IMG/VR virus record: IMGVR_UViG_3300044612_000982
Span: 1 to 22,072 of that record
Length of the DNA: 22,072 bases
Direction: 5' to 3' (one strand)
From: a virus
Part shown: positions 15,267 through 17,823 of the stretch, one piece after another
Layout of the letters: each line of letters opens with the position of its first letter
Position numbering within the stretch: the first letter of the stretch is position 1
Translations under genes and position numbers: made by a program
Notes under the pieces: generated by a model
Database searches by the model: none
What the model saw: only the letters and a program-made list of their open reading frames with translations
What the model was told of the DNA's origin: nothing

Positions 15267-15378
<112 letters not shown>

Positions 15379-15459
15379 AAACGCTGATTTCTGGGTCATA
15401 TACCCCCCACCCTAAACTGGGGCACAAACAACCACATCCATGGGTAATTAGGGTTAGAC

Positions 15460-16332
15460 ATGGGAATCGACGCACGTACCCCCATTCCCACCACTGCCGG
15501 ATGGCAGTTAGCGAGGTTTATCAAACCCGGGGATGAGGTTTTTGATTACACGGGCCTGCCCGTCAAGGTTGTTTCTGTTCAGGAGTACACGCCGGTGGTG
15601 TGTCATAAGATCTGGACCAAGGACGGCCTGACGTTGGTAGTGGATAGCCGTACCGGCATTCCGGTGTACGACAGCAAGATATTCCTCACACTGTCCAAGT
15701 GGGGGCGCAAGGTCCCGCCCAGAGAAGAGTACAGCCTCCCAATCTACGCGCCACAGAACCTAGCCACCATAGACACGGGTTGGTGCAGGATGCCAACGTG
15801 CTACCCGATTAAGCCAAGCGCCAAGCCGCTACCTCTCCACCCCTACGACATGGGAATGTGGATAGGGGACCCACACAGGGACAGGCGCACCCACGTAACC
15901 TCCAAGCTGATCGAGGCGTACGGCAAGATACCAGACCACATTCCAGAAGAGTACCTGTTCGGATCCTTTGAGCAACGACTGGCTATACTCCGGGGGGTAT
16001 GTGCCTCCAGACCAAAATGCCACAGCAAGATCTCTGCAAAGTTCAGGTTCAACATCAAGGACCTGAGGCTGTTCAGGTCAATCCACAACCTGACAGAGTC
16101 CTTAGGCATACGCACAGAGATAGCACAACACCAACACCAGTACCACATGGTGTTCAGGACCAACCTCAAACTGGTCGAGGACCAGACCCCCGTGCGTAGA
16201 CCCCAGTACGAAGAGATGCGCAGGATTACCCACGTTACCAAAGTGGACATTAGGCCCTGCATGCACATCAAGACCGCAGACCCCAACAACACGTTCCTAG
16301 TTAGCGAAGGGTACCTGACAGTATGCCTATGA
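15460..16332 (+). CDS. Stand-alone Hint/LAGLIDADG protein, splice- and probably cleavage-dead
   Basis: 290 residues built like an intein. Residues 4-40 (DARTPIPTTAGWQLARFIKP, GDEVFDYTGLPVKVVSV) match intein block A, but there is no Cys/Ser1: the protein starts MGID. Block B (about 54-70, KDGLTLVVDSRTGIPVY) lacks the catalytic His. PYDMGMWIGDPHRDR (128-142) is a first LAGLIDADG-like motif with GDP in place of GDG. RLAILRGVCASRPKC (173-187) matches the second motif, but the acidic residue is lost; SLGIRTE follows. The end (FLVSEGYLTVCL) resembles block F/G without the terminal His-Asn. It overlaps TerL by 10 nt. It probably derives from a terminase-type intein; its present role is unknown. Confidence 0.75.
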   Translation: MGIDARTPIPTTAGWQLARFIKPGDEVFDYTGLPVKVVSVQEYTPVVCHKIWTKDGLTLVVDSRTGIPVYDSKIFLTLSKWGRKVPPREEYSLPIYAPQNLATIDTGWCRMPTCYPIKPSAKPLPLHPYDMGMWIGDPHRDRRTHVTSKLIEAYGKIPDHIPEEYLFGSFEQRLAILRGVCASRPKCHSKISAKFRFNIKDLRLFRSIHNLTESLGIRTEIAQHQHQYHMVFRTNLKLVEDQTPVRRPQYEEMRRITHVTKVDIRPCMHIKTADPNNTFLVSEGYLTVCL

Positions 16333-17768
16333 ACGACACACAGCAAAAACTACTCAAGGCTTTTGCTGATCAAAACAAGGGATGGCCCAAGGAGCAACTG
16401 GATCTGGCACTGTGGCGTGTGAGGTGGGAGCTAACGGCACTACCGCACCAACAAGAGCCAGAGGACGGGGAGTATGACACGTTCTTACTTTTGGCCGGCC
16501 GGGGTTCGGGCAAGACGCACACGGCGTCAAACTGGCTAGGACTAAGGGCGGCAATCTACGACAAGACCCGCTGGTTGGTAACAGCCCCCACATCAAACGA
16601 CATTCGCGCAACTTGCTTCGAGGGTGACTCAGGCTTGCTGAACATCATACCCTCCTCGCTGATCAAGGACTACAACAAGTCACTGTTTGAGTTGACGCTG
16701 AAGAACGGGAGCATGATCCGCGGCATCCCGGCGTCTGAGCCAGAGCGCTTCCGGGGTACACAGTGGCACGGCATGTGGGCAGACGAGTTGTGTGCGTTCG
16801 AGTACATCGACGACGCGTACGACCAGATTCAGTTTACGTTGCGACTGACAGACCCGCGCATAGCGCGTGTGCAGTCGATCATCACCACCACACCCAAGCC
16901 ACTGGAACTTATCACGGACCTGAACGAGGGTAAGGTTGGCGGTGACGTGTACGTGTCCAGAGCCTCCTCATACGACAACAGGTCAAACCTCTCCAGCACG
17001 TTCTTCAAACAACTTGAAGCGTACGAGGGCACAGACCTAGGACGTCAAGAGATTTACGGCGAGATCTTGGACCCGGAGAACGCGGGTATTGTCAAGCGTA
17101 AATGGTTTAGAAGTTGGCCTGCAAAAAAGCCGACGCCTGTGCTGGAGTACGTGCTGGTGTCGTACGACCCGGCCACCAGCGAAAAAACACACAACGACCC
17201 AACCGCGTGCATCGCGTTGGGTGTGTTCGAGCAAGAAGACTTTGCGACAAGTTGCATTTTGCTCGACGCATGGGACAACCACCTGTCGTACCCCGAGTTA
17301 CGACGCAAGGTGATCGAGGACTACAAGGAAGTTGTGTACGGAGCGGACAACACCTTTGCCAAGGGTAAGAAAACGGACCTCATTTTGATGGAAGATAAGT
17401 CCGCGGGTATCTCCCTCATTCAAGAACTACAGGCCGCGCACCTGCCGGTGAGGTCCTACAACCCCGGACGCGCGGATAAGGTGCAAAGGATGAACATTGT
17501 GGCGCCCTTGATTGCAAAAGGCCGGGTGTACGTGCCAGAGGACCCAGAAAATCCGGGTGAGGTGGCACCTTGGGCCAAGCGTTTCATCAGGCAGGTGTGT
17601 TCTTTTCCTGAGGCTAAAGGCCACGACGACTACGTTGACGCACTTTCACAGGCTCTGAGGGTACTTAGGGACTCAGGTTGGCTCCAGTTGGACCCACTGC
17701 CGGCGCGAGACTACGCACACGCGGATGATATTGCGCGAAACAGGGTGAATAACCCCTACGCCGCGTGA
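16323..17768 (+). CDS. terL: Terminase large subunit
   Basis: 481 residues. DNA-packaging motor ATPase and headful or cos nuclease. Walker A is AGRGSGKT (58-65), the Walker B acidic pair is D154/E155 in MWADE, and the coupling motif is TTTPKP (188-193). The RNase H-like nuclease has D282 in SYDPATSEKTHND, E357 in LILMEDKSAG, and D435/D436/D439 in GHDDYVDAL. All catalytic residues are present and the gene is uninterrupted. It begins inside the Hint gene's end with GAAGGG 11-12 nt upstream. No small subunit was recognised in the window. Confidence 0.95.
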   Translation: MPMNDTQQKLLKAFADQNKGWPKEQLDLALWRVRWELTALPHQQEPEDGEYDTFLLLAGRGSGKTHTASNWLGLRAAIYDKTRWLVTAPTSNDIRATCFEGDSGLLNIIPSSLIKDYNKSLFELTLKNGSMIRGIPASEPERFRGTQWHGMWADELCAFEYIDDAYDQIQFTLRLTDPRIARVQSIITTTPKPLELITDLNEGKVGGDVYVSRASSYDNRSNLSSTFFKQLEAYEGTDLGRQEIYGEILDPENAGIVKRKWFRSWPAKKPTPVLEYVLVSYDPATSEKTHNDPTACIALGVFEQEDFATSCILLDAWDNHLSYPELRRKVIEDYKEVVYGADNTFAKGKKTDLILMEDKSAGISLIQELQAAHLPVRSYNPGRADKVQRMNIVAPLIAKGRVYVPEDPENPGEVAPWAKRFIRQVCSFPEAKGHDDYVDALSQALRVLRDSGWLQLDPLPARDYAHADDIARNRVNNPYAA

Positions 17769-17823
17769 TTTTCGGGCACAAACACCCTCATTTATGGGTG
17801 ATTGGTTATAGGAGGCCCCTTGA

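Follow-up and report, generated by a model that had tools for sequence, protein, structure and literature searches.

A stand-alone, catalytically dead intein encoded beside the large terminase gene of uncultured aquatic phages appears to be domesticated

Immediately upstream of the large terminase gene (terL), uncultured aquatic phages that form a large group carry an open reading frame that is, by sequence and modelled fold, a stand-alone class 3-type intein composed of a Hint domain and a LAGLIDADG domain. It is identified here, with a probability of roughly 90%, as a domesticated, catalytically dead intein, since it combines an origin in a mobile element, loss of mobility and maintenance by selection. 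Inteins are regarded as parasites and, to our knowledge, very few have been recruited for a host task. In this gene family, which spans at least hundreds of contigs, splicing and cutting are gone, the whole fold is conserved and the gene is tied to the terminase; what was a selfish element has apparently acquired a use. The use to which a dead intein is put thereby becomes a directly testable question. Furthermore, the automatic names 'homing endonuclease' and 'terminase' are wrong for genes of this family.

Results and Discussion

Origin of the Hint gene

The window is a 22,072-nucleotide stretch of viral DNA (IMG/VR record IMGVR_UViG_3300044612_000982), and the features discussed below are collected in Table 1; the analysis drew on sequences and a single predicted structure. 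The Hint gene was detected in 27 viral contigs at 85-100% identity and a profile-like search with 19 members recovered at least 485 relatives, which excludes a chance ORF and confirms the 290-codon, ATG-initiated frame as genuine. It has its own start codon, stops at the intein end and is not inserted in frame into a host protein. Across the family, the gene begins with Met followed by intein position 1 (Ala or Gly in nearly all members) and stops where the ...PTHN of an intein would fall; because Met directly precedes position 1 and the terminus coincides with the intein end, the gene corresponds exactly to an intein from end to end. The downstream TerL is intact and complete, as had been predicted.

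Table 1. Coordinates of the Hint gene, terL and associated elements in the window
Feature	Position	Strand	Remarks
33-base conserved leader element, GGGCACAAAC-N-TGGGTAATTAGG (GGGCACAAAC-N11-TGGGTRATT)	15420-15452	+	5' of the Hint gene; second copy at 17774-17806, 3' of terL
Hint gene, stand-alone intein-derived ORF (Hint + degenerate LAGLIDADG)	15460-16332	+	290 aa/codons, ATG start; basis: ORF call, family, fold
Hint N-terminal half (aa 1-76)	15460-15687	+	dN/dS 0.10 in window clade
C48 codon	15601-15603	+	Aligned to Cys48 of Msm DnaBi1 class 3 intein; 64/64
Block B, class 3 His65/Trp67 positions	15652-15660	+	Thr65 and Ile67 in window protein
LAGLIDADG (DOD) domain (aa 123-244)	15826-16191	+	Basic; catalytic residues altered
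D137, first LAGLIDADG Asp	15868-15870	+	Retained in window protein
R184, replacing second LAGLIDADG catalytic Asp	16009-16011	+	Lys/Arg in 58/64
Hint C-terminal half (aa 245-290)	16192-16329	+	Block F, degenerate block G (...GYLTVCL); dN/dS 0.084
C267, block F Cys, class 3 splicing nucleophile position	16258-16260	+	64/64
GAAGGG, terL Shine-Dalgarno-like site	16306-16311	+	Within codons of invariant E283-G284
ATGA, Hint stop/terL start overlap	16329-16332	+	Alternative terL ATG at 16323 not conserved
TerL, large terminase	16329-17768	+	Complete, without intein; Walker A GRGSGKT, Terminase_6N + 6C

A Pfam scan of the window Hint protein gave no match, while PHROG profiles of intein-bearing terminases matched it with an E-value of 3e-10 and the family profile matched the class 3 DnaB inteins 6rix, 6riy and 6bs8 in the PDB (E about 1e-9). 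The AlphaFold model of the protein has a complete intein fold at high confidence (pLDDT 92.4, pTM 0.90), superimposes on whole homing inteins with Z of about 20-22 (TliVMA 21.7; PI-SceI about 20) and on the Hint domain of the class 3 DnaB intein 6riy with Z 19 (2.0 Å over 128 residues). The Hint blocks and two LAGLIDADG-like regions first recognised from the sequence alone are thus supported by profiles and fold alike. Against sequenced phages, tblastn returned distant inteins only (<30% identity), hosted by the TerL proteins of Mycobacterium, Clavibacter, Escherichia and cyanobacterial phages, a PhoH protein, a DarB-like protein and HNH proteins. In the nearest active phage inteins an initial Ala, His65, Trp67, the block F Cys and a terminal PTHN or VTHN are mostly present.

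In a tree with nine active inteins, a branch supported at 100/100 separates the family from all nine, and its clade adjoins a mixture of TerL, PhoH, DarB-like and HNH-protein inteins. The original prediction held that a former terminase intein had become a separate gene; the passage from intein to separate gene is upheld, but a terminase is only one candidate donor, because the neighbouring inteins sit in mixed host proteins. The terL gene of a 65-kb contig contains an apparently active intein (L028:3986-4993) with Cys1 as well as the class 3 Trp-Cys-Thr set, possibly an intermediate between classes 1 and 3.

Catalytic residues lost and retained

Residues were tallied in 64 non-redundant family members and nine active inteins, the block F Cys being located by the motif C-hydrophobic-x-V/I and by how far it lies from the end, as the automatic alignment was two columns off in some members. 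Position 1 carries a non-nucleophilic residue (Ala in 47, Gly in 16, Ser in one), with Gly in the window protein. The absence of Cys1 was therefore correctly foreseen, albeit wrongly taken for decay: Ala is normal at this position in the nearest active inteins, which are class 3, and C267, at the nucleophile position of that class, is kept. Loss of the block B His and of the closing His-Asn had also been predicted, and both the His and the His-Asn are present in 0/64 members as opposed to 9/9 active inteins; Trp67 has gone too (0/64 versus 8/9).

In the LAGLIDADG domain, 58 of the 64 members have Lys or Arg in place of the second catalytic Asp, a residue conserved in 8/9 active inteins, whereas the first is retained in 12/64, including the window protein. 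Of the acidic residues thought to be missing from the window protein, then, the second is (Arg184) and the first is not (D137). Although two LAGLIDADG helices are present by fold, the family does not have the two catalytic acids that characterise a LAGLIDADG homing endonuclease. Meanwhile, C48 and the block F Cys are each present in 64/64 members. By alignment they would be equivalent to Cys48 and Cys118 of the Msm DnaBi1 class 3 intein, which form a disulfide upon oxidation (PMC6195587). Family proteins are basic (pI 9.0-10.0, median net charge of the LAGLIDADG domain +9), while the pI of active inteins ranges from 4.9 to 9.4.

Linkage to terL and selection

The best 80 of the at least 485 relatives all lie immediately 5' of terL with an overlap of 3-39 bases. 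When the search was started from TerL, covering relatives with enough upstream sequence, all those at 77% TerL identity or above had a separate Hint-LAGLIDADG ORF, 290-330 codons long, just 5' of terL, and among them the Hint proteins drop to about 26% identity. The Hint gene was present at 211/211 clade terL loci that had 700 or more bases of upstream sequence, adjacent at 200 and separated from terL by one endonuclease VII gene at 11; these loci were picked by similarity, include same-contig repeats and comprise 144 distinct junction sequences. Stand-alone Hint proteins upstream of terL in other phages, which a profile search had been proposed to reveal, are thus the rule in this clade. A single-protein scan of genome contigs found no relatives in cellular genomes, and no description of stand-alone inteins beside a terminase was found in the literature.

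The intervening endonuclease VII gene (116-119 aa; PF02945, E 2e-24; L001:4870-5220, L008, L016, L023, L024) occurs in some close relatives, likewise has overlapping stop and start codons and probably reached the Hint-terL junction later, as a homing-type insertion.

Hint and TerL distances are correlated (r = 0.91, n = 157 sequence pairs). It is most improbable that the Hint gene still encodes a selfish, free-standing homing endonuclease with the terL flank as its homing site. Such genes are known to cluster upstream of the terminase (PMC10448857), and the endonuclease VII gene has inserted here in some relatives, but the catalytic Asp has been exchanged for Lys or Arg, and the patchy, neighbour-independent spread by which free-standing homing endonucleases are recognised is not seen: every member carries the gene, in congruence with TerL.

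Active inteins at the same terL site, whose discovery would have spoken against the original prediction, were also looked for; none was found in the clade, where all homologues are separate genes without catalytic function, and the sister clade described below has no Hint gene. This bears on the idea of a homing blocker, i.e. a dead protein that binds the intein target and thereby shields terL from active inteins. The nuclease of the ancestral intein would have recognised a conserved gene, and cleavage has been lost while fold and charge were retained, but without any active intein in the Hint-bearing TerL clade there is no sign of a threat, and a blocking role is very unlikely.

Substitution patterns were strongly purifying rather than neutral, in agreement with the original prediction. 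Median dN/dS of the Hint gene in the window clade was 0.156 (TerL, 0.054), values in six other clades were 0.02-0.09, and constraint extended to all domains of the protein in clades about 30% identical. No frameshifted copy was found among the loci. That the gene is a decaying pseudogene, retained solely for the ribosome-binding site of terL, is hardly credible. The terL Shine-Dalgarno sequence does lie within the Hint gene, and Arth_1007, the single decayed class 3 intein in the literature, is indeed a pseudogene (PMC3196547), but the frame is open and under purifying selection across divergent clades, and this reading is already contradicted by the substitution pattern.

The small terminase and the sister clade

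In a sister TerL clade (MW202545, 53% TerL identity, and 80 relatives) the Hint gene was present at 0/67 loci and its slot was occupied by an Sf6-type small terminase (TerS, PF20901) at 67/67 loci with enough upstream sequence (77/80 overall). No Sf6-type TerS was found in the large Hint-clade contigs. All 11 of these, and none of six sister genomes, encode a TerS-like protein of 125-129 aa among the replication genes (phrog_309, E 5e-7 to 2e-9, which are weak family matches). Pfam and PHROG detected no TerS family signature in the Hint protein or its relatives, returning mainly intein-bearing terminase profiles and weak LAGLIDADG/Hint ones.

The exchange of genes within one slot, together with the missing Sf6-type TerS, would fit a substitute for the small terminase, responsible for recognising the packaging site. 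Because of the distal TerS-like gene in 11/11 large contigs, however, the Hint gene is not needed to account for the missing small terminase, and such a replacement is decidedly unlikely. The Hint gene occupies the physical place of TerS but probably does not do its job. In two members of the sister group, one of them Caulobacter phage RW, TerS and TerL are separated by a short paralogue resembling the TerL ATPase (L108:2445-3113 and L219:567-1301).

Junction with terL

A GARGG motif resembling a Shine-Dalgarno sequence is encoded by E283-G284 in 64/64 members, mostly 8 or 11 nt 5' of the first ATG; an alternative terL ATG at 16323 is not conserved. This arrangement indicates that terL is translated from a site inside the Hint gene, and the invariance of E283-G284 is explained by these codons forming that site. 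Neither these residues nor C289 (57/64), which overlaps the terL start, were counted as signs of protein function. A frameshift fusion of Hint and TerL was considered and rejected, as no slippery site was seen by eye at the overlap and ATGA with a Shine-Dalgarno sequence favours coupling.

Comparison with known systems

The HO endonuclease of yeast is an intein-derived stand-alone protein with a degenerate splicing domain that has been put to host use; it keeps its nuclease and has zinc fingers. The Hint family is likewise intein-derived and stand-alone, but its nuclease is dead as well and its setting is a phage terminase operon. Class 3 inteins (Mch and Msm DnaB-1, and phage TerL inteins, e.g. 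of Escherichia phage Ec_Makalu_002 and Synechococcus phage B23) share with the family a common fold, a mostly Ala position 1, the block F Cys, C48, the LAGLIDADG insert and the ends; the family differs in having no insertion in a host protein, His65, Trp67, terminal His-Asn or second nuclease Asp. Arth_1007 is also a class 3 intein without splicing, but it is a lone pseudogene with short exteins that has lost the block F Cys, whereas the family is conserved and keeps it (PMC3196547).

WhiA and the Hint family are both domesticated LAGLIDADG proteins without catalytic residues, but WhiA has an HTH domain and no Hint domain, and it does not bind DNA mainly through its degenerate LAGLIDADG domain (PMC3781837). 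HK97 gp74 shows that a nuclease-like gene upstream of the terminase can have joined packaging (PMC9410871, PMC10448857). Genes of the gp74 type are homing-endonuclease-like and sit 5' of the terminase as the Hint gene does, but have an HNH fold, an active nuclease and an unrelated sequence (PMC9410871). One database entry, A0A6J7WN65 from an uncultured Caudovirales phage, is a member of the Hint family (44% identity, TM 0.91); its automatic name, 'DOD-type homing endonuclease domain-containing protein', implies a nuclease although the family has lost the second catalytic residue.

Possible roles

Position in an operon is, on its own, no proof of function. That the domesticated protein is a basic, DNA-binding accessory of the packaging operon is rated at even odds. 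The Hint protein would be produced with TerL through coupled translation, its basic LAGLIDADG domain would still bind DNA without cleaving it, the second catalytic Asp having become Lys or Arg, and it could serve the packaging machine by, e.g., placing TerL on the genome or curbing the TerL nuclease. The invariant C48/C267 pair may act as a redox or conformational switch carried over from class 3 inteins. The charge and the Asp-to-Lys/Arg changes are only suggestive of DNA binding, and the Hint protein evolves several-fold faster than TerL, so contact with the TerL core need not exist. More tentatively, an intein may here have become a dedicated non-catalytic subunit of the viral DNA-packaging machine, in which the dead nuclease half binds DNA and the Cys pair, all that is still conserved of the active site, is perhaps a switch.

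The main rivals are a TerL partner acting through protein alone and a late regulator. The former would be a domesticated, translation-coupled chaperone or inhibitor that contacts TerL before assembly and has lost DNA binding. Co-translation, strict linkage and co-inheritance with TerL all suit this proposal, but a strongly basic LAGLIDADG domain would be superfluous for such a role, and the proposal is rather doubtful.

Leader element and intergenic region

The 33-base element that precedes the Hint gene is likely a late promoter or leader, and similar copies precede other genes in a 53-kb relative (the element was examined in two genomes). A WhiA-like, DNA-binding regulator of late transcription, heading the late operon, would be consistent with the Hint gene being the first of the rightward operon, with a conserved leader element repeated before several genes and with WhiA as a precedent for a domesticated LAGLIDADG regulator. 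It is nevertheless unlikely, as the Hint protein has no HTH domain, a regulator would have no need to overlap terL and the leader element was examined in two genomes only.

Synonymous diversity is low over the first 70 Hint codons (15460-15687) in the window clade, perhaps from recombination or a local DNA signal; the pattern is absent in a second clade, and a signal at the DNA level is therefore not claimed for the gene's 5' third. A long poly-T run (15308-15338) occupies the intergenic region where the leftward and rightward gene blocks diverge, and is present in most close relatives.
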